A DNA stretch of 64,000 bases from Pseudohongiella sp. O18 (GTDB taxonomy: Bacteria > Pseudomonadota > Gammaproteobacteria > Pseudomonadales > Pseudohongiellaceae): positions 558,001 to 622,000 of the forward strand of contig NZ_JAJSAR010000002.1 in assembly GCF_021729085.1 (NCBI RefSeq). The letters run 5' to 3'. Made by a program: the position numbers and the translations under genes. Shown here piece by piece: positions 6,217 through 40,960 of this stretch (position 1 is its first letter; the number at the start of each line of letters is the position of its first letter). The notes under the pieces were generated by a model. That model worked only from the letters and a program-made list of their open reading frames with translations. It had not been told where the DNA came from and did not search any database.

Positions 6217-6891
6217 ATGGTTTCCAGTTCCCATCAATCCAGCTCCCAGACCCTGTCGGACGGTGCCTTTGAACGCATCCAGACTGCGATTGTCAAAGGG
6301 GATATAGCGCCGGGAACGCGCCTGAGTGAGCAGTACCTGAGTGATACCTTCGGGATCGGTCGTGGCCCGCTGCGGGAAGCCATTCGGCGGCTGGAAGGTC
6401 GGCGATTGGTGGTCAGGATTCCGCACGCGGGCATTCGCGTCGCATCGCTGAGTGTGGCTGAGCTGATTGAACTGTACTACGTCCGGGAGGCGCTGGAAGG
6501 CATGGCCTGTCGACTTGCAGCTCAGCATATGACCGAGGAGGAAATTGCGGGGCTGCGTCAGGTGCTGGCCAGACACGAGCAGCACGCGGGCCTGCATACC
6601 AACGAATCCTACTATCAGCAGGAAGGGGAACTGGATCTTCACTATCTGATCATACAGGGTAGCCGCAATCACATGTTGCATGAGTTACTTTGCAGTGATC
6701 TCTATCATCTGGTACGCATGTACCGGTATCGTTTTTCGACAACTCCGGATCGCCCACAGCAGGCGTTTTCCGAGCACCATCGTATTATCGAGGCGATTGC
6801 CGACCGCGATGGTGAACTGGCGGAACTGCTGATGCGTCGGCACATCAGCGCCTCACGTCGCAATATCGAACAGCATCTGGAAAAGCCATAA
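6217..6891 (+). CDS. GntR-family regulator (FCD type) of the methylcitrate operon
   Basis: 224-residue transcription factor. It has an N-terminal winged helix (about 14-75, with [21 protein letters not shown]) and a helical FCD ligand-binding domain (about 85-215) with the metal/ligand His and Arg residues typical of the family. It lies 40 bases upstream of prpB on the same strand. In several gammaproteobacteria (PrpQ in Shewanella) a GntR protein controls the prp genes, so it probably senses a methylcitrate-cycle intermediate. No strong ribosome-binding site is visible; TTAGGAT lies about 12 bases before the ATG. Confidence 0.88.
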
Positions 6892-6931
6892 GACAAAATC
6901 AGTTAAAGAACTCAAAAGGAGAGTCCTGGAC

Positions 6932-7819
6932 ATGCAGACAACACCCGGTCAACGCTTTCGTGCAGCAGTCGCAGAGGAGCATCCGCTGCAGGTTGTTGGT
7001 GCGATCAACGCCAATCATGCGCTGCTGGCAAAAAGGGCCGGCTTCAAGGCCATTTATCTTTCCGGTGGTGGCGTCGCTGCCGGGTCACTGGGGCTGCCTG
7101 ATCTGGGTATATCCGGACTGGATGATGTTTTGACAGACGTGCGACGTATCACTGATGTGTGCGATCTGCCGCTGCTGGTCGATGTCGATACCGGTTTTGG
7201 CGCCAGTGCATTCAACGTGGCTCGAACTGTGAAGTCGATGATTAAATTCGGCGCGGCTGCCATGCACATCGAAGATCAGGTGGGTGCCAAGCGCTGTGGT
7301 CACCGGCCTAACAAGGAAATCGTTACACAGGCAGAGATGGTGGATCGTATCAAGGCGGCTGTGGATGCACGCACCGATGACAGTTTTGTGATCATGGCGA
7401 GAACCGATGCGTTGGCGGTAGAGGGGCTTGAAGCGGCTCTGGATCGCGCCGAGGCCTGCATCGAAGCGGGTGCAGACATGGTGTTTCCGGAGGCGATTAC
7501 CGAGCTGGAAATGTACGCCAGGTTCACAGACCGATTGAACGTGCCGGTACTGGCCAATATTACCGAGTTCGGTGCCACGCCGCTGTTCACGACAGAGGAA
7601 CTGGCGGGCGTGGATGTTTCGCTGGTCCTGTATCCATTGTCAGCTTTCCGGGCCATGAACAAGGCAGCCGAGAATGTTTATACCGCCATCCGGCGCGACG
7701 GCACGCAGCAGAACGTCGTCGATACCATGCAGACACGTGCCGAGCTCTACGATCGTATTGATTACCATGTTTACGAAGAGCACCTGGACGCGCTGTTTGC
7801 CAAGCAGAAAAAATCCTGA
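6932..7819 (+). CDS. prpB: 2-Methylisocitrate lyase
   Basis: 295-residue TIM-barrel enzyme of the isocitrate lyase/PEP mutase superfamily. It cleaves 2-methylisocitrate to pyruvate and succinate, the last step of the methylcitrate cycle. Visible motifs: DVDTGFG (84-90, metal site), the catalytic loop KRCGH (120-124, Cys122), then HRPNKE. Length matches the family. AAGGAGAG precedes the ATG by about 9 bases. First enzyme gene of the prpB-prpC-acnD-prpF run. Confidence 0.96.
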
Positions 7820-7872
7820 CTTTTTCATCCAAATGCCAGCTATGGTTTTAATAGCAGGGAGGAAACTTAATT

Positions 7873-9003
7873 ATGTCTGACAAAAAAATTCTGAGCGGTG
7901 CCGGCCTGCGTGGACAGGTTGCAGGAAAAACAGCGCTGTCTACCGTGGGAGTGTCCGGTTCCGGTCTGACTTATCGGGGCTATGACGTCAAGGATCTGGC
8001 TGAGAACTGCCTGTTCGAAGAAGTGGCCTATCTGATTCTGAAAGGGGAGCTGCCAAGCCGCGCTGAGCTCACTGAATATCAGTCTACTTTGAAATCGCTG
8101 CGTGGATTGCCAAACGCTCTTAAAGAAGTTCTGGAGCGAATCCCCAAAGAAGCCCATCCCATGGATGTAATGCGAACGGGCTGTTCCATGCTGGGCAACC
8201 TGGAAACTGAAGAAAAGTTTGCTGATCAGGGGCATGCCGCAGACAGACTGCTGGCAGTTTTACCCTCCATCATCTGCTACTGGTATCGCTACAGTCACGA
8301 TGGTGTGCGCGTCGATGAGGTGACCACTGATGAGTCGATTGGTGCGCATTTCCTGCACTTGTTGCTGGGGGAAAAACCCAAACCGCTGCACGAACAGGTG
8401 ATGAATGTATCCCTGATTTTGTATGCCGAACATGAATTCAACGCGTCCACATTTACCGCGCGTGTCTGTGCATCAACCCTCTCTGATATGCACAGCTGTA
8501 TCACCGGTGCCATCGGCTCGCTGCGTGGTCCCCTGCACGGCGGCGCCAACGAAGCGGCCATGGATATGATCGAGAAATTCCGGGATCCGGATCATGCCGA
8601 ACAGGAAATGCTGGGTATGCTGGAGCGCAAGGAAAAGATCATGGGTTTTGGTCATGCGATTTATAAAGAATCTGACCCGCGCAATGACATTATCAAGGCC
8701 TGGTCGAAAAAGCTGTCCGACGACGTCGGTGACACGGTGCTGTATCCGGTATCGGTGCGTTGCGAGGAAGTCATGTGGCGTGAGAAGAAACTGTTCTGCA
8801 ACGCCGATTTCTTCCATGCCTCGGCTTATCACTTCATGGGTATTCCGACCAAACTGTTTACACCCATTTTTGTCATGAGTCGAGTGACTGGCTGGGCAGC
8901 GCATGTCATGGAACAGCGCGCCGACAATCGGATCATCCGACCCAGCGCTGAATACACCGGCCCTGCACCGCGCCAGGTAACACCCATAGATAATCGGGGA
9001 TGA
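7873..9003 (+). CDS. prpC: 2-Methylcitrate synthase
   Basis: 376-residue citrate-synthase-fold enzyme condensing propionyl-CoA with oxaloacetate to 2-methylcitrate. Catalytic residues are in place: His222 (GPLHGGAN), His261 (GFGHAIY) and Asp312 (NADFFHAS). The short citrate-synthase form and the operon position between prpB and acnD identify it as PrpC rather than GltA. AGGGAGGAAA lies upstream of the ATG. The stop codon is separated by a single base from the acnD start. Confidence 0.96.
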   Translation: MSDKKILSGAGLRGQVAGKTALSTVGVSGSGLTYRGYDVKDLAENCLFEEVAYLILKGELPSRAELTEYQSTLKSLRGLPNALKEVLERIPKEAHPMDVMRTGCSMLGNLETEEKFADQGHAADRLLAVLPSIICYWYRYSHDGVRVDEVTTDESIGAHFLHLLLGEKPKPLHEQVMNVSLILYAEHEFNASTFTARVCASTLSDMHSCITGAIGSLRGPLHGGANEAAMDMIEKFRDPDHAEQEMLGMLERKEKIMGFGHAIYKESDPRNDIIKAWSKKLSDDVGDTVLYPVSVRCEEVMWREKKLFCNADFFHASAYHFMGIPTKLFTPIFVMSRVTGWAAHVMEQRADNRIIRPSAEYTGPAPRQVTPIDNRG

Positions 9004-9004
9004 C

Positions 9005-11611
9005 ATGAACAAACTGTATCGCAAGCCTCTGCCGGGGACATCGCTGGACTTTTATGATGCCCGCCAGGCAGTAGAAGATATTCAGAGCGGTGCCTGGGCA
9101 TCACTGCCTTACACCTCACGAGTGCTGGCCGAAAACCTGGTGCGCCGCTGTGATCCGGATATGCTGACTGAGTCTCTGAATCAGCTTATCGAGCGCCGCC
9201 GCGACCTGGACTTCCCGTGGTTCCCTGCGCGTGTGGTGTGTCACGATATTCTCGGGCAGACGGCGCTGGTTGATCTGGCGGGGCTGCGCGATGCGATCGC
9301 TGAGCAGGGAGGTGATCCGGCCAAAGTCAATCCGGTCGTGCCTGTGCAGCTCATCGTCGACCACTCACTGGCTGTTGAGTGCGGAGGTAATGTTCCTGAT
9401 GCGTTTGAGCGCAATCGTTCGGTCGAAGAGCGCCGCAATGAGGATCGCTTCCACTTTATCGACTGGACACGTTATGCCTTCAAGAATGTTGATGTGATAC
9501 CGCCAGGTAACGGCATCATGCACCAGATCAATCTGGAAAAAATGTCACCGGTCATCTATGTCGACAAGGGAGTGGCATTTCCTGATACCTGTGTGGGCAC
9601 GGATAGCCACACGCCACATGTCGATGCCCTGGGTGTTATCGCCGTCGGCGTGGGTGGCCTGGAGGCAGAAAATGTCATGCTGGGCCGTGCATCGTGGATG
9701 CGTCTGCCCGACATCATTGGTGTGGAACTGAAAGGTAAATTACAGCCTGGTGTCACTGCCACGGATATGGTGCTGGCATTGACTGAATTCCTGCGCAAGC
9801 AACGTGTGGTGGGTGCCTACCTGGAGTTTCATGGCGAAGGTGCCGCTGCCCTGACGCTGGGTGATCGCGCAACCATCTCCAATATGGCGCCCGAGTATGG
9901 TGCCACCGCCGCGATGTTTTTTATAGATCAGCAGACCATCGACTATCTGACCCTGACTGGTCGTGATGATGAGCAGGTGCAGCTGGTTGAGACCTATGCC
10001 CGTCATACCGGTTTGTGGGCTGACGATCTGGTTACGGCCAGATACGAGCGAACACTTGAGTTTGATCTTTCCAGTGTCACGCGCAATCTGGCGGGGCCCA
10101 GCAATCCTCACGCACGCGTTGCAACGGCTGATCTGGCGAGCAAAGGTATCGCCGTTGGTCTTGAACAGGCACGTGCCGAAGAGGCTCAGGGACTGCTGCC
10201 TGACGGTGCTGTCATCATTGCGGCGATTACCAGTTGCACCAATACCAGCAACCCGCGCAATGTGATCGCCGCGGGGCTGTTGGCGCGTAATGCCAACCGG
10301 CTGGGTCTGGTCAGCAAGCCCTGGGTGAAAACTTCCCTGGCGCCAGGGTCCAAGGCCGTAAAGCTTTATCTTGAGGAGTCGGGGCTCAAGCAGGAGCTGG
10401 AAAAGCTGGGTTTTGGAATTGTCGGGTTTGCCTGCACGACCTGTAATGGCATGTCCGGCGCTCTGGACCCTGAAATACAGCAGGAGATCGTCGACCGCGA
10501 TGTGTATGCGACAGCGGTGCTGTCTGGCAATCGCAATTTTGACGGACGCATTCATCCTTACGCCAAACAGGCCTTCCTGGCCTCACCACCCCTGGTTGTT
10601 GCCTATGCCATTGCGGGTACGATTCGTTTTGACATAGAAAAGGATGTTCTGGCAGAGGTGGATGGCAAGCCTGTTCGCCTGATGGATCTGTGGCCGACGG
10701 ACGAAGAGATCAACGAGGTGGTCAAGGCCAGCGTCAAACCGCAGCAGTTTCGTGATGTGTACATCCCGATGTTTGATATTTCGCGTGACGAAGCCAACAA
10801 GGTCAGCCCTTTGTATGACTGGCGCGAGATGTCCACCTATATCCGGCGTCCTCCCTATTGGGAAGGCGCGCTGGCGGGCGAGCCCAGCCTGAAGGAAATG
10901 CGCCCTTTGGCAATTCTGGGTGACAACATCACCACAGACCACCTGTCGCCCTCTAATGCCATCCTGGCAGATAGCGCTGCTGGTGAGTACCTGTCAAAAA
11001 TGGGCGTTCCGGAAGAAGACTTCAACTCCTATGCAACGCATCGGGGTGATCATCTGACGGCACAGCGCGCCACCTTCGCGAATCCCAAGCTGATTAATGA
11101 AATGGCCATTGTGGATGGCGAGATTAAGCAGGGATCACTGGCGCGTATTGAGCCGGAAGGAAAGGTTACCCGGATGTGGGAAGCTATAGAAACCTACATG
11201 GAACGCAAGCAGCCACTGATCATAATCGCGGGTGCGGACTATGGACAGGGCTCTTCTCGTGACTGGGCCGCCAAAGGGGTGCGCCTGGCCGGAGTCGAGG
11301 CAATTGTGGCTGAAGGTTTTGAAAGGATCCATCGGACCAATCTGATTGGCATGGGTGTATTGCCGCTGGAGTTTGAGCCAGGCACTACACGCAAGACTCT
11401 GAAGCTGGATGGTACCGAAACCTATGATGTTCGCGGCGAGCCCAGGGCTGGGGCGACGCTGACACTGGTCATTCACCGCCGCGATGGGACTGAGCTAACC
11501 GTGCCGGTACGCTGTCGACTGGATAGTGATGAGGAAACTTCTGTGTATCAGGCTGGCGGTGTGTTGCAGCGCTTCGCACAGGACTTCCTGCAGGCAGAGG
11601 GCGCAGCATGA
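9005..11611 (+). CDS. acnD: Fe/S-dependent 2-methylcitrate dehydratase, aconitase family
   Basis: 868-residue aconitase-family protein. The [4Fe-4S] cysteines are visible at 411 (TSCTNTSNP), 477 and 480 (CTTCNGMSG); GTDSHTPH, NRNFDGRIHP and the C-terminal swivel-domain motif QGSSRDWAAKG are also present. It dehydrates 2-methylcitrate to 2-methylaconitate. The partner PrpF follows with a 4-base overlap, and this acnD/prpF arrangement replaces PrpD. The length and neighbours separate it from housekeeping AcnA. Confidence 0.95.
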   Translation: MNKLYRKPLPGTSLDFYDARQAVEDIQSGAWASLPYTSRVLAENLVRRCDPDMLTESLNQLIERRRDLDFPWFPARVVCHDILGQTALVDLAGLRDAIAEQGGDPAKVNPVVPVQLIVDHSLAVECGGNVPDAFERNRSVEERRNEDRFHFIDWTRYAFKNVDVIPPGNGIMHQINLEKMSPVIYVDKGVAFPDTCVGTDSHTPHVDALGVIAVGVGGLEAENVMLGRASWMRLPDIIGVELKGKLQPGVTATDMVLALTEFLRKQRVVGAYLEFHGEGAAALTLGDRATISNMAPEYGATAAMFFIDQQTIDYLTLTGRDDEQVQLVETYARHTGLWADDLVTARYERTLEFDLSSVTRNLAGPSNPHARVATADLASKGIAVGLEQARAEEAQGLLPDGAVIIAAITSCTNTSNPRNVIAAGLLARNANRLGLVSKPWVKTSLAPGSKAVKLYLEESGLKQELEKLGFGIVGFACTTCNGMSGALDPEIQQEIVDRDVYATAVLSGNRNFDGRIHPYAKQAFLASPPLVVAYAIAGTIRFDIEKDVLAEVDGKPVRLMDLWPTDEEINEVVKASVKPQQFRDVYIPMFDISRDEANKVSPLYDWREMSTYIRRPPYWEGALAGEPSLKEMRPLAILGDNITTDHLSPSNAILADSAAGEYLSKMGVPEEDFNSYATHRGDHLTAQRATFANPKLINEMAIVDGEIKQGSLARIEPEGKVTRMWEAIETYMERKQPLIIIAGADYGQGSSRDWAAKGVRLAGVEAIVAEGFERIHRTNLIGMGVLPLEFEPGTTRKTLKLDGTETYDVRGEPRAGATLTLVIHRRDGTELTVPVRCRLDSDEETSVYQAGGVLQRFAQDFLQAEGAA

Positions 11612-31918: not shown

Positions 31919-32443
31919 TCAGCGGGTTTTCGCTGTAATGACCTCAACTTCAACAAACATCAGTGGCCCAACCAGACGAGCCACTTCTACAGTAGAGCGT
32001 GCCGGCAGGCGCGGCTGCTCTTCCGTACCCCAGTACATGCGATAGGCCTCCATGAAGCCATCGAAGTCCATTTCGCCGCCGTTGGCTGGGTCACCCACGA
32101 GGAACACGGTCATCTTCACGACATCGCCCATGCTCAGACCCAGGTTTTCCAGATTGGCTTTGGTACGCTCGAAGACGCTGATTGCCTGCGTTCTTGTGTC
32201 GCCGTAGTACTCCGGTGTGCCGCGCTCGGCATCGGGGTTGGCGGCTGCGGGTGTGACACCACTATGGAAAATGATGGACGCGCCAGGACCCACTTCAACG
32301 GCATTGGCGATGGGAAAGGTGCCGGGGTTCGGGTGGATGATGACATTTTCATCTTGAGCGTTTGTCTGGGTGCTCATCAAGGGCAGGCTGATAGCCAGCG
32401 AGAGTCCCAGAAGTGAACGCTTGAATCGATTGCTCACTGACAT
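31919..32443 (-). CDS. Secreted RidA-family imine/enamine deaminase
   Basis: 174 residues from the ATG at 32443, which has AAGGAGAA just upstream; the frame opens earlier at 32515 without family support. A signal peptide (SLLGLSLAISLPLMSTQTNA) ends near residue 30, so the protein should be periplasmic, unlike cytosolic RidA. The Rid core follows, with the catalytic Arg in PARSTVEVARL and the Glu-containing FVEVEVIT, so deaminase activity is plausible. It is encoded 40 bases after the dihaem cytochrome gene on the same strand, which suggests it acts on imines made by a nearby periplasmic oxidase. Confidence 0.88.
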   Translation of the reverse strand: MSVSNRFKRSLLGLSLAISLPLMSTQTNAQDENVIIHPNPGTFPIANAVEVGPGASIIFHSGVTPAAANPDAERGTPEYYGDTRTQAISVFERTKANLENLGLSMGDVVKMTVFLVGDPANGGEMDFDGFMEAYRMYWGTEEQPRLPARSTVEVARLVGPLMFVEVEVITAKTR

Positions 32444-32483
32444 TGAAGTTCTCCTTGAATAATAACTGGGATAATGAGCTGTA

Positions 32484-33119
32484 TCAGCGCCCCAGCGTGT
32501 TGATGTAACTGGCAATGTCTTTCATGGCCTGCTCGTCAGGAATGGCGCGGGCCATCAGGGCCATTTGTGAGCCATAGGTGTCTCGCGAATCGTAGCCGCG
32601 GTGACCATTCTTGAACGCATTTAACTGATTAACAATATACCAGTCGTTCTGGCCCGCCAGGGCAGGTGCATTCATGGCTTCGTTACCCTGGGCATCGGCA
32701 CCGTGGCAGGCCGCACAGGGTTGATAAAGTGTCTGTCCACGCTCGGCGTTACCATCGGTGATTGTAATTTCAGCGGGTTTGTATTCCCAGGTCGCAACCC
32801 AGTCCAGTATGTCCTCTATGCTTTCATCGGTCAGGATTTCAGCCATGGGCTGCATTTCCTGGCCGGGGATATCTTCAGGGTGTGTGCCACGCAGGCCATC
32901 CCTGAACAGTTCCAGCTGTCGCTTCAGATACCAGCGCTCCATACCGGCCAGACGCGGTGCGTCAATGCCCTGGTTGCCCTGGCCATCGGTGCCGTGGCAG
33001 GTCAAACAGAACCGGTCACTGACTTCTACGCCATCGATTGTCGCTGCCTGTGCAGTTGTGCACAGTGCGGCACCCAGCGCCAGACTAACCCAGAATCCTG
33101 CTTTTTTGGCTTTCATCAT
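32484..33119 (-). CDS. Dihaem c-type cytochrome (cytochrome c4-like)
   Basis: 211 residues: signal peptide (to about residue 25) and two class I cytochrome c domains. The haem motifs are CLTCH (38-42) and CAACH (135-139). Repeated LAGxxxWYxxxQL segments and a methionine in each half (EMQPMAEIL; SQMALMAR) can act as sixth ligands. A periplasmic electron carrier to a terminal oxidase. Same strand as and just upstream of the secreted RidA, and downstream of the TonB receptor, separated from it by a terminator. Confidence 0.92.
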   Translation of the reverse strand: MMKAKKAGFWVSLALGAALCTTAQAATIDGVEVSDRFCLTCHGTDGQGNQGIDAPRLAGMERWYLKRQLELFRDGLRGTHPEDIPGQEMQPMAEILTDESIEDILDWVATWEYKPAEITITDGNAERGQTLYQPCAACHGADAQGNEAMNAPALAGQNDWYIVNQLNAFKNGHRGYDSRDTYGSQMALMARAIPDEQAMKDIASYINTLGR

Positions 33120-33135
33120 GCAAATCCACTCTCGT

Positions 33136-33167
33136 TAAAAAAGGGGACGGAGCACGGCTCCGTCCCC
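33136..33167 (-). terminator. Rho-independent terminator after the TonB receptor
   Basis: Eleven-bp stem GGGGACGGAGC (33143-33153) / GCTCCGTCCCC (33157-33167) with a 3-base loop. On the minus strand it is followed by six T (33142-33137). It ends the receptor transcript and may reduce read-through into the cytochrome gene. Confidence 0.85.
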
Positions 33168-33187
33168 CCATTTGGTCCGCTTAACGC

Positions 33188-35725
33188 TTACAGATTGATC
33201 TGTACGCGACCGTAAAGGAATCGTCCGTTCGGGCTGAATGCACCATCAGTCAGGTAGATATTACTGCTGGTAGCACTGAAGTCCACGGGACGTACCCGCT
33301 CTGGCATGGTGTTGAACAGGTTGTCAGCACCAATGATGAAGGTGTAGCGGTTGTCGTAGGTGTAGGCCACTTCGCTGGAGAAGATGGTCTTGTCGCCTAC
33401 CCAGTAGTCACGAGCCGGGTTCGCATTGCTTGGCACACGGAAGTACTCATCGTAGTAGTTCGCCTGCAGCGTGAAACGCCAGTCGTTATAGTTGTGGTTG
33501 GCGCGGAAGTTCAGACGATTCTTGGGAATGCCGTCTTCCAGGTCAGCCACGTTGGCGCGGGTCAGCAAACCAGGTGTGAATTCCTTCAGCTCCTGTGTCT
33601 GATAAGCCCAAGAGGCGTTGAAGCTGGTGGTGCCAGCGTTCTGCCAGTCCATGTCCCAGGACGCAACCACTTCCACACCTTCGTTGGTGGTGGACATGTC
33701 GTTGGTGTAGTAGTTGAACGACACGATGCTGCGCGCACCGGAGATACCGGAATCTTCCAGTTCCTGAGCGATCTGCGGCGTAATGTCGAAGGTCGCGGAG
33801 TTCAGGATACGGTCGTCGATATCGATGCGGTAATAGTCCACAGACAGGTCAACTGGTCCGAGTTCCGCGGTCCAGCCAATACTGAAGTTGGTTGCTTCTT
33901 CTGGTGTCAGCTCGGTACCACCAAAACGCTGGGAGATCGGGTTGGTTGGCGGAATCTGACCCTGTGTAACCGGGATGGAATCAACAACACCGGTAGAGAT
34001 GTTGGAGATGTTGGCCTGGCCGGGCGACGGGGCACGGAAACCGGTGCTCACAGTACTACGGATGTTCATGGTATCTGTCAGACGGTAACGGGCGCTCAAC
34101 TTACCATTGGTGGTGTCACCAAAGGTGTTGTAGAAATCCTCGTAACGGATCGCAGCACCCAGTAACAGGCGCTCAGTCACGTCAATTTCCATATCCACGT
34201 AGAAGGCCCAGTTCTTACGATCCCATGAACCCTGCTGGTCCGGACCAAAACCCTGGAAGCCGTCAGAACCTACACCGAAGCCCTGGTTGGCATATGGTCC
34301 AATGCGGTATGAGTCCTGATCTTCGTTACTTACCTTGAAGATCTCACGGCGCCATTCTGCACCGTAACCGATGTTCAGGTCGGAGTACATGCCAACGTCA
34401 AAACCTTTTACCAGGTCGACGTTAACGGTGTTCTCAATCGTGGTGTAGATACCCGGCTCAAATGAAGTCGGTGAATCCGGACCCATGGACGGGTTGACGG
34501 TGTTGTAGATGAAGTACTTCATCTCGTTAAAGCCGTTGTTGATGCTGACATCGTAACGGGTGCCATCATCCAGCTCGCCGCGGATACCGGCAGCTGCCAT
34601 GGTATCAACGTTTGTGCCACCGAAGTCAGGCGTGTAACCGCCCGGGAACCACTCGGCGAATGAGAAGCAGTTGGGGTTGGCCGCGCTTGCATCACGTGCT
34701 GCCAGCGAGCTGGTCACGCCGGTTTGCGGATTAACGCCGCGTGGAATATTCGGGCAGCCAACGCCGTCGTTGGGGGTCAGATCCGCAAAAAGTTGACGTG
34801 AACCGCTTGTGAATACGCCACCCCGGTTTTCCGGGTTACGGTAGAAGAAACCCAGCTCAACTTCTTTCTCGCCATAACCAGCAAAAGCATACAGTTCCTG
34901 GTTGGCGCTCAACTGGATGCCGGAGTTCATGAAGAAGTTAACCAGCTCGGAGTCGGGCAGACCCTGGCGCTGCACGTTAACGCGTGGAGCGTTGTTGCCG
35001 GCGTCAATCAGCGCCTGCGCGTCACCACGCTGCACGGAACGGTCGCTGCGGCGCTGGTCAGTCAGGTCGAAACTCAGGCTGACGAAGCCGTCCGGGCCGA
35101 GTGGCAGGCCCACGTTACCGGCGTAGTAGTTCAGCATGCCGTCGTCAGTTTCAGTCAGACGACCGTGCTTGGCTTCAAAAGTGGCGCCGTCACGGTTTTC
35201 TTTCAGCAGGAAGTTGATTACGCCGGCGATGGCATCAGAACCGTACTGGGCTGATGCGCCGTCACGCAGCACTTCTACCTGGCGCAGGGCGATCGGTGGA
35301 ATCTGGGCGACGTCCGGGAAGTGGGTTCCCTGACGGCCGAACTGGATTGCTGCAGAGCGATGACGACGTTTGCCGTTAACCAGAACAAGCGTATCGTCTG
35401 CCGGCAGACCACGCAGTGTCGCCGGGCGTACCAGCGAGTTGGAGTCGTTGATGTCCTGAACGTCTACGTTAAATGTTGGAATCAGGTTGCGCAGCAGATC
35501 ATTCATGTCTGCGGTACCCTGGTCCTGGAAGTCCTGAGCGGAAAACACGTCGATGGGCGCTGCTGATTCAAGGGCAGTACGCGGTGCACCGCGGGAACCG
35601 GTGACCACCACTTCTTCGAGCTCCGGAGCCGCTTCCTGGCCGTATGCCAGCTGAGCGCCAGCAGTCAACGAGCCCAGCAGCACCAGTGACGATGACAGTG
35701 TGCAGAGTTTTAGTGACTTGTTCAT
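33188..35725 (-). CDS. TonB-dependent outer-membrane receptor
   Basis: 845 residues: signal peptide (to about 29, AYGQEA), TonB-box-like ELEEVVVTGSRG, plug domain (about 50-170, with LRGLPADDTLVLVNGKRRH and DGASAQYGSDAIAGVINF), then a 22-strand barrel ending GRFLYGRVQINL. It imports a ligand across the outer membrane using TonB energy. No Fur box is visible upstream, so iron siderophore uptake is not indicated. It lies between the CadC-like regulator and the cytochrome/RidA pair on the same strand, so its substrate may be the amine or amino acid oxidised by that cluster (inference). Confidence 0.93.
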   Translation of the reverse strand: MNKSLKLCTLSSSLVLLGSLTAGAQLAYGQEAAPELEEVVVTGSRGAPRTALESAAPIDVFSAQDFQDQGTADMNDLLRNLIPTFNVDVQDINDSNSLVRPATLRGLPADDTLVLVNGKRRHRSAAIQFGRQGTHFPDVAQIPPIALRQVEVLRDGASAQYGSDAIAGVINFLLKENRDGATFEAKHGRLTETDDGMLNYYAGNVGLPLGPDGFVSLSFDLTDQRRSDRSVQRGDAQALIDAGNNAPRVNVQRQGLPDSELVNFFMNSGIQLSANQELYAFAGYGEKEVELGFFYRNPENRGGVFTSGSRQLFADLTPNDGVGCPNIPRGVNPQTGVTSSLAARDASAANPNCFSFAEWFPGGYTPDFGGTNVDTMAAAGIRGELDDGTRYDVSINNGFNEMKYFIYNTVNPSMGPDSPTSFEPGIYTTIENTVNVDLVKGFDVGMYSDLNIGYGAEWRREIFKVSNEDQDSYRIGPYANQGFGVGSDGFQGFGPDQQGSWDRKNWAFYVDMEIDVTERLLLGAAIRYEDFYNTFGDTTNGKLSARYRLTDTMNIRSTVSTGFRAPSPGQANISNISTGVVDSIPVTQGQIPPTNPISQRFGGTELTPEEATNFSIGWTAELGPVDLSVDYYRIDIDDRILNSATFDITPQIAQELEDSGISGARSIVSFNYYTNDMSTTNEGVEVVASWDMDWQNAGTTSFNASWAYQTQELKEFTPGLLTRANVADLEDGIPKNRLNFRANHNYNDWRFTLQANYYDEYFRVPSNANPARDYWVGDKTIFSSEVAYTYDNRYTFIIGADNLFNTMPERVRPVDFSATSSNIYLTDGAFSPNGRFLYGRVQINL

Positions 35726-35927
35726 TGATATTTCCTTTTATGTAGTAAGTGCGTCTTGTTCGTGAACCGAGTAAGAGCATGCCGGCTGGAGTTGTTATAT
35801 GGTTTTTGACCCAACGGCAGTCTGATTATTAGATCAGCGCATGTGCAAAGTCCTCCCTAAAACCTTCTCAATACCTACTAAAACACTCTCCAGCTCACGT
35901 ATGGCGCGGCTTTTGAGAGATTCTGAC

Positions 35928-38207
35928 TTAGTGGACTCGAGCAGCGTTCAGGGTGGACGCCTGGGTCAGACGCTGGGTCTTGTGATGCTCGTATTCCGCC
36001 CACTGTTGCTCATTCCACAGATTATTTTTCTGCATGAACTGCTGATTCTCATAGGCGTCACGAGATCGGCGGCTAAGAGAAATGCCTGTGATCGATTCCA
36101 TCGCCATTACACCTTCCATCAGCCGGTGTTGCCAGCTGATACCCGCTCCCAGGGATTCAAGCAGATCCTGATAGTCAGATGATGCAAGTACGTGGTCGGG
36201 AAAAAGCTTTTCCGCCGCGTGGGTGACATTGAAGAGACGACGCAGATGAACCGGTTGCAGGTTTTGCCAGTAGGCGACACCGGTGTCGATATCGCCTGCC
36301 ATAAAGGCCAGCACGCCGTTGTTGAAGTAGAAGTCGGGCTCGTCACGCATGGCGCCTAGATAACTGTTGTCATCTGCCCGGATATTGCCTGCCAGAAAGT
36401 TGATCACTGACTCACTGTAGTGTGTCAGGATACCGTCCTGATCGACCTCGCGCTGCTGGGTCAGATAGATCTGTGCCTGTCTGAAGTCCCCCAGCAGTGC
36501 CAGGTTTACAGCCACCGATCCCAGATAGGACACATGGTATGGTCGCTGCTGCAATTCGTTTTTACGCGCGATGACAGCCTCTGAGGGTGTCATCACGTTG
36601 TGCCTGTAGCTCCAGACTTCGTCGGGAGATATCTCAAAGGGGCCAACCTCGGACGCCTGGTCCAGAAACTGGGAGGCCTCGTCGTACATACGAGCCCCAA
36701 TCAGCAGGAGCGCATAGTGCGCCATCGCAAAGCGGGGTGGGTTGCCGGACAGTATCTGTTCGCGTAGCTGCATTTCCTGCTGTACATAGCTGGAGCCTCG
36801 CATCCGTAGTTTGATCGCATGGATGGAGTCCAGTATTTCACTGTCCGGATCTATGCGGGAGATTTCCCGGTGAACGTCCAGCACAACCTGTAGCAGCTCG
36901 TGAATACGTTCTCCTGCGCTGTATACCGCAAGGTTATTGGCGGCTGTGGCCAGGCCGTGGTAGGCATTCAGAAAATCGGGGTCCAGTTCGATAGCATTAC
37001 GGTGGTAGTCCATGGCGCGCTGCCAGTCGGCAGGATTGAACTGGTTATTGTAGAACTCGCCGCGCAGAAATCGTTCATAGGCAAGAGGGTTGGTTGTACC
37101 CCAATCGCGCATCTGCTCACGTTCGCTGTCATTGAGGTATATGCGCAGGGCATCGACCACATTTTCGACAATCTGATCCTGGACAGCGAATATATCGTTC
37201 ATGGGCAGATCGAACTGATCTGAGTATTCGCGCAGCCCATCGCTGGCGCGGACCAGTTGCACGATAACGCGCAGATGACCCTCGGACATCATGACACTGC
37301 CCTGCAGGATGTGATCTGCATTGTATAGCTCCGAGGCATCGTCATAGCGGCCTCCCCGAGACATGGAGGCATTGATCATTTCGGCGCCACGAGGGCGTGA
37401 CAGGATCTGCAGATGTCCAAGTTTTGCCAGTCCATGAATCAGAGATTCACGGATACCTTCGGCCAGGATCTGATTCTCGTCACTGAAATCGCGGCTGGTG
37501 AAAGGCAGTACCGCAAGTCGCACAACGCCGTCAGCTGCTGGCGTCGATTCCGGGCTCTTGATGAGAACAGGGGCTGCTACCACCATGGCAATCAACATCG
37601 CGGCCGCAAAAAATCGTTGCCAGAGCGGGCGATGGTCCAGCCAGCCAAACAGGGCGCCAGACCAGCCACCCGCGGTGGGAGATTCTGTGTGTGTGCTTTG
37701 TGCGGCGTGAATTGATCGCGGGTCAGCGGATGTCCCGCCAACAGACGCGCCCGGGAACCGATTTGCAGTTTGTGGGTCAGAATTATCAGTGCTTGATTCA
37801 TCCTCGGCAACGTGACTGGCCACAGCCGTCACAGGCGCGATCAAAGTATAGCCGCGTTTTGGTATCGTCTTGATATATATGGGCTTATGCGCGTCGTCCT
37901 GTAATGCGCCGCGTAACTCTGCAATGGCTTTGTGGACAGCGTGGTCGGTGGCGATAGGAGAGCGCCAGATACTCTCAAGCATCTGAGTGGGGCTGACTAC
38001 CTGGCCGGCGTTCTCGATGAGCAGGCGCAGAACATCCATGCTGCGTGGCGTAACTTTGTTCTCGATGAGTTCGCCAGCTGGGTTATGCTGGCCTTGAGCG
38101 GTGCCGGAGGTGTTTTTCGAGACAGTGCAGGCGCCCGGCGACACTTCCCAGTCACCGACCTTTACGAGTTGATAGTCCTGCATTTTTATCGTTGTTTTAT
38201 CGGCCAT
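35928..38207 (-). CDS. CadC-like membrane-bound transcription regulator with TPR sensor
   Basis: 759 residues from the ATG at 38207; an upstream ATG at 38264 has no ribosome-binding site or family support. An OmpR-type winged helix (about 10-120, with VTPRSMDVLRLLIENAGQVVS and IKTIPKRGYTL) is followed by one membrane helix (near 195-215). Then comes a FlgO/TolB-like domain (VRLAVLPFTSRDF..., about 225-330) and periplasmic TPR repeats (about 370-700). Such one-component regulators sense periplasmic signals and bind DNA from the membrane. Divergent from the flavin amine oxidase and upstream of the TonB receptor, so it likely controls both. Confidence 0.88.
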   Translation of the reverse strand: MADKTTIKMQDYQLVKVGDWEVSPGACTVSKNTSGTAQGQHNPAGELIENKVTPRSMDVLRLLIENAGQVVSPTQMLESIWRSPIATDHAVHKAIAELRGALQDDAHKPIYIKTIPKRGYTLIAPVTAVASHVAEDESSTDNSDPQTANRFPGASVGGTSADPRSIHAAQSTHTESPTAGGWSGALFGWLDHRPLWQRFFAAAMLIAMVVAAPVLIKSPESTPAADGVVRLAVLPFTSRDFSDENQILAEGIRESLIHGLAKLGHLQILSRPRGAEMINASMSRGGRYDDASELYNADHILQGSVMMSEGHLRVIVQLVRASDGLREYSDQFDLPMNDIFAVQDQIVENVVDALRIYLNDSEREQMRDWGTTNPLAYERFLRGEFYNNQFNPADWQRAMDYHRNAIELDPDFLNAYHGLATAANNLAVYSAGERIHELLQVVLDVHREISRIDPDSEILDSIHAIKLRMRGSSYVQQEMQLREQILSGNPPRFAMAHYALLLIGARMYDEASQFLDQASEVGPFEISPDEVWSYRHNVMTPSEAVIARKNELQQRPYHVSYLGSVAVNLALLGDFRQAQIYLTQQREVDQDGILTHYSESVINFLAGNIRADDNSYLGAMRDEPDFYFNNGVLAFMAGDIDTGVAYWQNLQPVHLRRLFNVTHAAEKLFPDHVLASSDYQDLLESLGAGISWQHRLMEGVMAMESITGISLSRRSRDAYENQQFMQKNNLWNEQQWAEYEHHKTQRLTQASTLNAARVH

Positions 38208-38677
38208 AGGCAATCTTTCTTGTATCCATCTATGCAAACAAAAACGGCACCGAACGTCAAGCATTTACGTGCACATGTTGCGTTATATCAAGGCTTACCC
38301 TGACAGCGTAGTGACTATGGTCATGGCTGTGCCGAGAGGCAGGCGCTGAATATCTCCAGCGCCTGACGATGCAAGATTGAGGCCACGCATTGATGATGCC
38401 ACATTGCACACGGGAGTTCTGATCGTCCCGCGTGTGGCGCGGACTCAAGCCGCCAGCATTTGGTGCCGATAGCAAGGTAGCGCACTAAAACAGGGCGTTT
38501 CGCTTGGGCCTGGAATGTTGCCAGGGTGAACCGGGTAGGTTTTTGGTATGTTTCGGGCAGGACTTTTTGCTGTGGCATGCGCATAATGGTGTCACCGATG
38601 ATCAGCCAATGGTGCATAGACGCCAGCCCGGCCACTCGGCCAAGAAGTAGAAGTATGGACTGCAGAGGATATCGCAA
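38208..38677. other. Divergent intergenic region with two hairpins
   Basis: A 470-base gap between the CadC-like regulator and the flavin oxidase. It holds two stable dyads: CAGGCGCTG (38340-38348)/CAGCGCCTG (38357-38365) and CACACGGGA (38406-38414)/TCCCGCGTGTG (38425-38435, with a 2-base bulge). Neither has a T run. An open frame of 118 codons on the minus strand here shows no protein-like composition. The hairpins may be regulatory or part of a leader; I see no clear promoter hexamers. Confidence 0.4.
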
Positions 38678-40249
38678 GTGTCAAAACCCGTAACGCGTCG
38701 TGAATTTCTGAATCTAATTGCCGCCACTGGCGGTGTCGCTGCCGTACTCGGCGTAGGCGGAGCGCTGGGTCTGATTCCCGCCAGCACCTCGGCCAGTGTG
38801 CCGAACCTGATGCCACTGAACGGACAGAGCAAGCGGGTTGTTGTACTGGGTGGAGGTATCTCCGGCCTGACGACGGCCTACGAACTTGGCAAAGCAGGTT
38901 ATGACTGCACCGTGCTGGAGGCATCCCACCGCTGCGGTGGACGAGTCATGACAGTTCGCCACGGAGACCTGATCGACGAGATCGGCAACCCCCAGATCTG
39001 TAATTTTGATGATGAGCCGCATCTTTACTTCAACTGCGGTGCTGCCCGAATTCCCAGTTCACACAAAAATGTACTGAACTACTGCAAGGAACTCGGAGTT
39101 GAGCTGGAAATGTTCATCAACGAGAACAAAAACGCGCTGGTGCATGATCCCGACCTGAATGGCGGCAAGCCCATGCGCAATATCGATATCAGCACCAACC
39201 TGAAAGGCTTCATGGCCGAGATGATGTTCAAGGGCTTTAATGCCGCAGAACTCGACCAGCCCTTTACGGATGAGGAAGCCAGCAAGGTCGTAACGCTGAT
39301 TCGTCAGTTTGGCGACCTGGACCAGGACGGACGCTACACCGGCAGTCTGCGCAGTGGCTATGCCTCTGGTGGGTTTATATCCGACCCGGTGCAGGAAGAA
39401 ATGATTCAGATCCGTGACCTGCTGAAAGCCGATACCGGCCTGCTGCGTTCCGTGCTGCTCGAAAACGAAGGCGAGACAGCCCCGATGCTGATGCAGCCGG
39501 TTCATGGCATGGACAATATCATCAAAGGCTTCCTGCGCAAGCTTGAGGGCAAAGTGCAGTACCACGCCATGGTCATGGCTGTGCATGATCATGGCGACAG
39601 CATTGATGTGACCTATGACCAGAATGGCGAACGCCACACTATCACTGCTGATTACGTCTTTAACTGTATCCCTGCACACCTGATGGTTGGTATTGAAAAT
39701 AACTTCCCTGAAGAATATCGCGAAGCGATGAAACAGATCCGTCGCGGTGTTGCTTATAAAGGTGCCTTCCAGATGAAGCAGCGCTTCTGGGAAGATGAAG
39801 AGATTTATGGCGGGATCACCTGGACCAATCAACCGATTCGGCAAATCTGGTATCCCTTCCACGGGCTGCTCAAGCAGAAGGGCGTGATGCTCGCTGCCTA
39901 TGACTACGGCGGTGGTGATCGCTGGCAGCGTCTGACACAGGAAGAGAGAATTGAAGAGATGCTGTCTCAGGGTGAAAAGATTCACCCGCAGTATCGCGAG
40001 ATGGCCGAGCACGGTATCACCATCGCCTGGCACCGCATGAATCATATGCTGGGCTGTTCTGCGCGTTGGGGCAGCATGACACCCGAACGGGAAGTGCAGT
40101 ATTCACTGCTGCAGCAACCTGCCGGGCGTCACTACATGATCGGAGATCAAATCAGTCGTAAGTCGGCCTGGATGGAAAGTGCGATTCAATCTGCACACTG
40201 GGCAATGGCACACCTGGATCAACGCGTGCGGTCGGAAGCCGCCGCTTGA
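38678..40249 (+). CDS. Tat-exported flavin amine oxidase, L-amino-acid-oxidase-like
   Basis: 523 residues, GTG start with AGAGGAT about 8 bases upstream. The Tat signal TRREFL (6-11) precedes a hydrophobic stretch to about 40, so it is folded with FAD before export. The FAD site is VVVLGGGISGL (54-64), Glu81 and GGRV (87-90). The segment GAARIPSSHKNVLNYCKELG resembles the substrate-side motif of L-amino-acid oxidases, and the C-terminus has the FAD-binding end IGDQISRKSAWMESAI. It should oxidise an amine or amino acid to an imine in the periplasm. The secreted RidA and cytochrome nearby fit downstream steps. Electron acceptor (O2 or cytochrome) unknown. Confidence 0.87.
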   Translation: MSKPVTRREFLNLIAATGGVAAVLGVGGALGLIPASTSASVPNLMPLNGQSKRVVVLGGGISGLTTAYELGKAGYDCTVLEASHRCGGRVMTVRHGDLIDEIGNPQICNFDDEPHLYFNCGAARIPSSHKNVLNYCKELGVELEMFINENKNALVHDPDLNGGKPMRNIDISTNLKGFMAEMMFKGFNAAELDQPFTDEEASKVVTLIRQFGDLDQDGRYTGSLRSGYASGGFISDPVQEEMIQIRDLLKADTGLLRSVLLENEGETAPMLMQPVHGMDNIIKGFLRKLEGKVQYHAMVMAVHDHGDSIDVTYDQNGERHTITADYVFNCIPAHLMVGIENNFPEEYREAMKQIRRGVAYKGAFQMKQRFWEDEEIYGGITWTNQPIRQIWYPFHGLLKQKGVMLAAYDYGGGDRWQRLTQEERIEEMLSQGEKIHPQYREMAEHGITIAWHRMNHMLGCSARWGSMTPEREVQYSLLQQPAGRHYMIGDQISRKSAWMESAIQSAHWAMAHLDQRVRSEAAA

Positions 40250-40555: not shown

Positions 40556-40960
40556 ATGATGAAAAATGCAAGCAAGCGCGGCGTGTGGCGAAGTGCAATG
40601 GCCGGAGTGGCTCTGTCCTTGATGGCACCTGTTGCGCTGGCCCAGATCGAAGGTGTTTATGTGTCTGATGCAGGTGATGAGTGTACCTTGACGATAACCG
40701 AGATCAATATCCCGGAGCCCCAGTTTGGCGACGGTTATTATCGTGTCGAGTCACGTGGTAAAGCCGCATGCATGTGGGATGGTGTCGGCATGGGGCAGTC
40801 CACCAATCTTGTCGGTGGTTACGTGACCCTTCCTCCCGTGTTCAATCGTGTCTATATCACGGCCAAATGGTTGTTCGGCCCTACAAGTCCAAAGGTGGAG
40901 ATGGTGCAGACCAATGAGGCCGGTGAAGTATTGATGAGCTCCACGTATACGCGTCAGTGA
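40556..40960 (+). CDS. Small secreted protein of unknown function, FNR-type promoter
   Basis: 134 residues with a clear signal peptide (GVALSLMAPVALAQ, cleavage near 29). The mature part is about 105 residues, beta-rich and compact, with Cys at about 42 and 66 that could form a disulfide (DECTLTI; KAACMWDG), reminiscent of small lipocalin- or immunoglobulin-like periplasmic domains but not recognised. AGGGGAAAG lies before two adjacent ATG codons (40556 and 40559). The oxygen-responsive promoter upstream is the only functional clue. Confidence 0.75.
   Translation: MMKNASKRGVWRSAMAGVALSLMAPVALAQIEGVYVSDAGDECTLTITEINIPEPQFGDGYYRVESRGKAACMWDGVGMGQSTNLVGGYVTLPPVFNRVYITAKWLFGPTSPKVEMVQTNEAGEVLMSSTYTRQ

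Follow-up and report, generated by a model that had tools for sequence, protein, structure and literature searches.

A probable periplasmic L-amino-acid oxidation module with a predicted exported Rid3-type imine deaminase in Pseudohongiella sp. O18

Genes for an L-amino-acid oxidase (LAAO), a c-type cytochrome and a RidA protein form the lao-cccA-ridA cluster of Gluconacetobacter diazotrophicus, described in 2016, in which the cytochrome and RidA were proposed to assist a probably periplasmic LAAO and whose order was reported to be conserved in Caulobacter and Xanthomonas (PMC5053998). A locus of this kind was examined in a window of 64,000 nucleotides (nt) from Pseudohongiella sp. O18 (contig NZ_JAJSAR010000002.1, positions 558,001 to 622,000), where, as in Gluconacetobacter, genes for an LAAO with a twin-arginine translocation (Tat) signal, a cytochrome c and a RidA occur together (PMC5053998). 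The Gluconacetobacter LAAO serves indole-acetate synthesis from tryptophan, and the accessible text of that report does not mention an export signal on RidA (PMC5053998). Unlike that cluster as described there, the window has a divergent gene order and additionally contains genes for a TonB-dependent receptor and a CadC-like regulator. An extracytoplasmic LAAO with a RidA is likewise found in Chlamydomonas (i.e. periplasmic LAO1 with LAO2/RIDA; PMC10805672), but this enzyme is eukaryotic and yields H2O2, and a cytochrome partner is not mentioned in the accessible text (PMC10805672).

Tat-exported amine oxidoreductases with an associated Sec-exported cytochrome were dehydrogenases in many tested cases, and those of clade 1 adjoin dihaem c4 cytochromes (PMC12224317). 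The window shares the combination of a predicted Tat flavoenzyme and an associated putative Sec cytochrome c with NicA2, Pnao and clades 1-3; the dihaem c4 cytochrome type is shared with clade 1, and, unlike the window, RidA does not appear in the accessible text of that paper (PMC12224317). Imines made by an LAAO, and also iminoarginine, are quenched in vitro by two Rid3 proteins, PFL_1385 and PSPTO_3006; when six genes of Rid1-3 were tested in a ridA mutant, four gave rescue, irrespective of subfamily, the figure title naming RidA and Rid1 (PMC5619798). In 2015, flavin adenine dinucleotide (FAD) amine oxidase genes were noted to cluster with those for RidA and in some cases Rid3, and Niehaus et al. 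described Rid1 to Rid3 as proteins whose in vivo substrates are wholly unknown (PMC4433059). The word 'periplasm' is absent from the main texts of both papers, as is 'signal' from the former (PMC5619798) and 'signal peptide' from the latter (PMC4433059). A first-pass annotation of the window had called a periplasmic RidA serving an oxidase a little-described arrangement; the Gluconacetobacter cluster and the Chlamydomonas pair were already in print, whereas no statement on the export of bacterial Rid3 was found in the openly licensed papers searched.

The window locus probably encodes a periplasmic oxidative-deamination module comprising a Tat-exported LAAO, a c4-like cytochrome, a Sec-exported Rid3 and a CadC-like regulator. 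An L-amino acid arriving in the periplasm would be oxidised by the FAD-containing LAAO to a 2-imino acid, with electrons from the reduced flavin passing via the c4-like cytochrome to the respiratory chain. The exported Rid3 would hydrolyse the imino acid to a keto acid and ammonia before it could react or diffuse away, and these products would then be taken up. The divergently transcribed membrane regulator would probably respond to a periplasmic compound. The analyses described below show by computation the protein families and their gene order, the catalytic residues and export-like signals, the co-occurrence and the single Rid clade.

The oxidase matched Pfam Amino_oxidase (PF01593) with 137.7 bits against a cut-off of 19.8. 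Its best solved match was the LAAO of Rhodococcus opacus (2jae; E = 9.6e-75, residues 51-521), ahead of reconstructed tetrapod and snake LAAOs, and a profile of 13 homologues again placed 2jae on top (E = 5e-113). The structural comparison with LAAO that had been proposed in the first pass gave the same answer, as the fold ranking for the AlphaFold model (mean predicted local distance difference test score (pLDDT) of 72.3, weak at residues 174-251) was led by 2jb1 (TMq 0.75) and 2jae (TMq 0.74). Arg124 aligned with the GATRIP Arg of R. opacus LAAO, which we take to bind the substrate carboxylate, and did not vary in either of two alignments (13 and 28 homologues). The N-terminus contains TRREFL followed by an uncharged hydrophobic stretch and is Tat-like as judged by eye rather than by SignalP; both this motif and RIPSSHKNV, from which a Tat-exported, LAAO-like oxidase had been proposed, were found in the sequence. 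The oxidase is a predicted R. opacus-type LAAO of the FAO superfamily. A polyamine or monoamine oxidase was rejected because LAAOs topped both the sequence and the fold rankings; of the amino-acid/amine oxidation originally envisaged, the amino-acid part is favoured by the LAAO-like sequence and invariant Arg124, and amine or polyamine substrates were not supported. In one LAAO orthologue (L014, genome G001), the search output contained one TAA inside the match.

The nearest solved proteins to the RidA were PSPTO3006 (9bka, E = 3.4e-31) and PFL1385 (9bkc, E = 7.4e-28), with the next best match at 1.2e-08. The same two proteins were nearest by fold, using a model with a mean pLDDT of 72.1 that was poor across most of residues 1-44, and both are imine deaminases active on LAAO products (PMC5619798). 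The ATG at 32443, which is preceded by AAGGAG, was taken as the start, a TTG start (198-amino-acid (aa) open reading frame (ORF)) being less likely because a good Shine-Dalgarno sequence precedes the ATG; the slice used for family and structure-database searches (31919-32446) extended one codon beyond this ATG. Inspection of the N-terminus, without SignalP, indicated a basic n-region, a hydrophobic core and a possible cleavage site at TNAQ-D, and an orthologue with 97% identity (L035) passed the export-signal classifier described below. An FPI of the window RidA aligns by eye with the Rid3 protein PSPTO3006 and may hold the Ile that stands for the active-site Tyr17 in Rid3, a column that was not used for the assignment. 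The window RidA is predicted to belong with the Rid3 proteins and to carry an export signal; the signal peptide noted in the first pass is seen in the sequence as an export-like N-terminus, and the imine-deaminase Arg is kept. This Arg (i.e. Arg149) is the equivalent of the catalytic Arg105 of RidA, and was present in 93 of 94 aligned Rids, the remaining one having a gap at this position. Such retention bears on whether the exported Rid might be a structural subunit of the oxidase in vivo rather than a deaminase, as suggested by the periplasmic LAAO of Chlamydomonas (M-alpha), whose RidA (M-beta) is cited as non-catalytic (PMC5053998). Both the conserved Arg and the activity of Rid3 proteins on LAAO imines (PMC5619798) make a purely structural role improbable. 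In the proposed periplasmic module, the Rid would act as a deaminase beside a dihaem cytochrome, which has CxxCH motifs at residues 38 and 135 and for which cytochrome c4 was the best solved match (E = 9.9e-15).

Conservation was assessed in a named-genome set (i.e. the best 80 of 349 relatives) and in a phylum-wide draw of 397 proteobacterial genomes, from which 31 LAAO loci were fetched. LAAO homologues were present in 25 of 56 related genomes, its own included. Cytochrome genes were found at 76 of the 80 named loci and Rid genes at 65, and the LAAO, cytochrome and Rid were encoded on the same strand at 51. Contig ends, as read from lengths and positions, cut all four loci without a cytochrome and nine of the 15 without a Rid; the uncut loci without a Rid there were L041, L042, L048, L070, L077 and L106. 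The phylum draw contained an LAAO at E = 1e-40 or better in 29 genomes from 24 genera, with a Rid at 25 of the 31 loci and a haem-motif ORF within 1.4 kb at 22, two short haem-motif ORFs (L139 and L146) being excluded from the latter count as doubtful. The association of oxidase and RidA proposed in the first-pass annotation thus exceeds chance in both sets, and the c-type cytochrome that it had paired with the oxidase is present at most such loci. The five-gene neighbourhood fared differently as a general unit: the window's order occurred at only 14 of the 80 named loci, with a divergent regulator at 26, and no regulator match was observed among the listed neighbour genes of the 31 phylum-draw loci.

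Genome-wide co-occurrence was also examined in the draw, the LAAO and Rid3 searches being taken to cover the same 397 genomes from their equal totals and shared identifiers. LAAO and Rid3 occurred together in 26 genomes, LAAO only in three, a partial Rid3 only in one and neither in 367 (Fisher p = 2.5e-36), a co-occurrence that is not fully independent because some loci of this draw had contributed to the Rid3 profile, while all p-values overstate independence because close relatives were counted. The Rid3 profile, at a cut-off of 1e-22, matched 27 of 397 genomes, and only one partial match (1.6e-31) fell between 3.7e-41 and the cut-off. Of 29 Rid3 matches, 27 lay within 7 kb of an LAAO and 23 within 1.5 kb. 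The LAAO-Rid3 pair is, as far as gene content can tell, the conserved core of this system, with the cytochrome as a common third member and, as accessories, the TonB receptor in the window or a symporter of the SDF family in sister lineages.

Export signals were then compared between Rids at LAAO loci and Rids elsewhere. An N-terminal signal was scored for 87 of 93 LAAO-locus Rids as compared to 7 of 70 elsewhere (Fisher p = 8.5e-30), the 87 comprising 64 signal-peptide-like sequences, 17 lipobox-like sequences and 6 anchors with a linker. The 70 controls came from 28 phylum-draw genomes (40 hand-picked down the ranking, among the matches listed, and 30 from loci returned), and 66 of the 93 LAAO-locus Rids came from other, named genomes. 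For the phylum draw alone, 24 of 26 LAAO-locus Rids had a signal (p = 2.7e-14), both exceptions belonging to one genus; the far Rid of L164 was counted as a miss in the 87 of 93 and excluded from the 24 of 26 and from the tree. Counts were left as the classifier gave them despite known mislabels (i.e. L110 looks anchored yet was scored as 'none', and the 'lipo' Rids of L036, L037, L039 and L040 look like ordinary signal peptides). Scans for a Tat motif, in which 3 and 15 of 112 rows lacked the motif, were not used for counts. A tree, based on few columns and a rough bootstrap, was built from the controls, the window Rid, 26 other phylum-draw Rids and 22 Rids from 21 chosen named loci. One clade (100/97) contained 48 of these 49 LAAO-locus Rids and none of the 70 controls, the only LAAO-locus Rid outside being the second Rid of L114. 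Export looks ancestral to this clade because the signal-less pair nests inside it.

The genus of the two exceptions, presumed to be Pseudomonas, was sampled more deeply, with 51 matches in 50 of 199 genomes, of which 50 loci were examined. Fewer than two charged residues after the oxidase twin arginine and a Rid with a signal were exhibited by 27 loci, whereas 22 had at least two charges and a Rid without a signal. One locus (L317) combined a single charge with a signal-less Rid, and oxidase and Rid states agreed in 49 of 50. In the LAAO tree, the 23 signal-less loci grouped as a single clade (99/100), with L283 on a very long branch. The apparent loss of both export signals together is as predicted by a shared compartment. 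There is a modest preference for a broader proposal, in which Rid3 would be an ancestrally extracytoplasmic imine deaminase that evolved in proteobacteria to accompany respiratory LAAOs almost obligately, with three export routes (Sec signal, lipoprotein and N-terminal anchor) and one return to the cytoplasm together with its oxidase in a lineage of Pseudomonas. If so, the in vivo substrates of Rid3 would be periplasmic 2-imino acids, an exported Rid beside a periplasmic LAAO offering both a testable substrate and a place of action. Metabolite-damage control would thereby extend to the envelope, with an extracytoplasmic job indicated for a protein family mostly studied in the cytoplasm, and respiration of amino acids outside the cytoplasm is suggested for some bacteria. 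As long as it kept its signal, an exported Rid3 of the PFL_1385 type would be predicted to be a poor substitute for a missing cytoplasmic RidA, and the signal-less PSPTO_3006 type a better one.

Several points weigh against a periplasmic, cytochrome-linked module. The substrate class, electron acceptor, imine release, regulation and real localisation are inferred, and export signals were scored with a home-made classifier rather than SignalP, the same rule being applied to both sets. The joint signal loss in Pseudomonas counts as a single change because the signal-less loci form one LAAO clade. Two other genes of the window lie between the cytochrome and the oxidase, which are on opposite strands, and clade-1 enzymes reacted in vitro only modestly with the c4 cytochromes that accompany them (290-2700 M-1 s-1; PMC12224317). 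Four Pseudohongiella-type genomes (G003, G007, G011 and G013) have no Rid at the LAAO locus, each having a signal-bearing Rid elsewhere. Neither the Rid nor the cytochrome is indispensable, since 6 of the 31 phylum-draw loci lack the former and nine lack a nearby haem protein. Eight of these nine have a Rid (L139, L144, L145, L146, L154, L161 and the signal-less L163 and L164) and five loci have a haem protein without a Rid (L142, L148, L153, L158 and L162), so that the Rid seems tied to imine chemistry more than to the acceptor. The Rid-bearing loci without a haem protein would also fit an enzyme that uses O2 in the periplasm and generates H2O2, the cytochrome being a mere neighbour and the Rid still clearing the imine. 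The nearest solved relatives are named oxidases, and tested Tat enzymes without a neighbouring cytochrome c were mostly fast with O2 (PMC12224317). Such an enzyme is nevertheless rather unlikely, given the near-constant cytochrome of the named loci (76/80) and the published use of a Tat signal with an associated cytochrome c gene as a mark of dehydrogenases (PMC12224317). Several Pseudohongiella-type loci, including L041, L042 and L048, have kept the LAAO, regulator, TonB receptor and cytochrome and lack the Rid.

All five genes of the first-pass annotation were present at its positions, with the RidA start moved to the ATG (Table 1). The regulator, TonB receptor, cytochrome and RidA are transcribed leftward from 38264 and the oxidase rightward from 38678. 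Gaps of 202, 68 and 40 bp separate the four leftward genes, a spacing that would fit a single transcript.

Table 1. Features of the LAAO locus in the window (aa, amino acids; TM, transmembrane)
Feature	Position	Strand	Remarks
Rid3-type imine deaminase (RidA)	31919..32443	-	174 aa, predicted Sec-type signal peptide, Arg149; PF01042 above cut-off
c4-like dihaem cytochrome c	32484..33119	-	two CxxCH, PF00034 and PF13442, signal-like N-terminus; probable electron acceptor
TonB-dependent receptor	33188..35725	-	Plug and barrel; accessory in local branch
CadC/ToxR-like membrane regulator	35928..38264	-	PF00486 winged helix; a single TM helix is predicted around residue 218
Divergent intergenic region, 413 bp	38265..38677	.	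presumed control region; from gene coordinates and sequence
Tat-signal FAD L-amino-acid oxidase/dehydrogenase (LAAO)	38678..40249	+	523 aa, GTG start, PF01593
Secreted-looking 134-aa protein	40556..40960	+	directly 3' of oxidase; membership in system uncertain

The regulator has its winged helix at residues 70-141, a hydrophobic segment beginning at ~218 and a long C-terminal part that is presumed periplasmic. Likeness to CadC extends over residues 70-484 with 101.7 bits, well under the cut-off of 400, and suggests a regulator that senses on the periplasmic side. The TonB receptor gave weak, mainly plug-only matches to colicin I, enterobactin, siderophore and B12 receptors, from which no substrate could be assigned. 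In the window's branch it is encoded between the regulator and the cytochrome, as in the 14 loci with the full order, which might indicate a system for the TonB-fed uptake and catabolism of one specific ligand (an amine, a peptide or a compound resembling a siderophore) that the oxidase attacks; receptor matches also occur a few genes from several distant LAAOs, the background rate of receptor genes not having been measured. Among the 51 loci with a same-strand LAAO, cytochrome and Rid, a receptor match was present in only 5, although the profile was built from this receptor's kin and other receptors may escape the count. With the oxidase being LAAO-like in addition, a role confined to such a ligand is very improbable.

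Relatives of the proposed amino-acid oxidation module have a gene for an SDF-family symporter between those for the cytochrome and the Rid (position +2 for 37 such genes; 38 of the 80 named loci), one example in an LAAO operon being L065:12276-13694. Symporters of five relatives were scanned and belonged to the SDF family; in a scan of four symporters, the nearest match was GltP but far under the curated cut-off, with an aspartate transporter also near, and a substrate was not assignable from this match. The sodium-site motifs of the L088 symporter seem altered as compared to the aspartate transporter (by eye). A 57% identical copy of the SDF symporter is encoded elsewhere in the window's genome (C1:715983). 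One branch of relatives (28 loci) has an amidase-family gene 3' of the Rid (e.g. L071:14580-16493).

The 134-aa protein downstream of the oxidase had no Pfam or NCBIfam match. In the local branch, secreted-looking proteins of 134-151 aa with no Pfam match follow the oxidase (e.g. L039:11763-12215), and a 12-locus gene family stands at +1 of the oxidase in 11 loci, being equated with the 134-aa protein by position and length only. Additionally, the window's genome contains two more exported-looking Rids in convergent orientation at ~479.4-480.5 kb of C2 (L115:9428-9886 (+) and L115:9991-10467 (-)), one with a lipobox and the other with a signal peptide. No LAAO match was found in this 19-kb locus, and the second of the two Rids matches the profile of LAAO-locus Rids. 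A further locus, L157, contains two convergent LAAO genes (6796-8493 and 9915-11552) together with two signal-bearing Rids.

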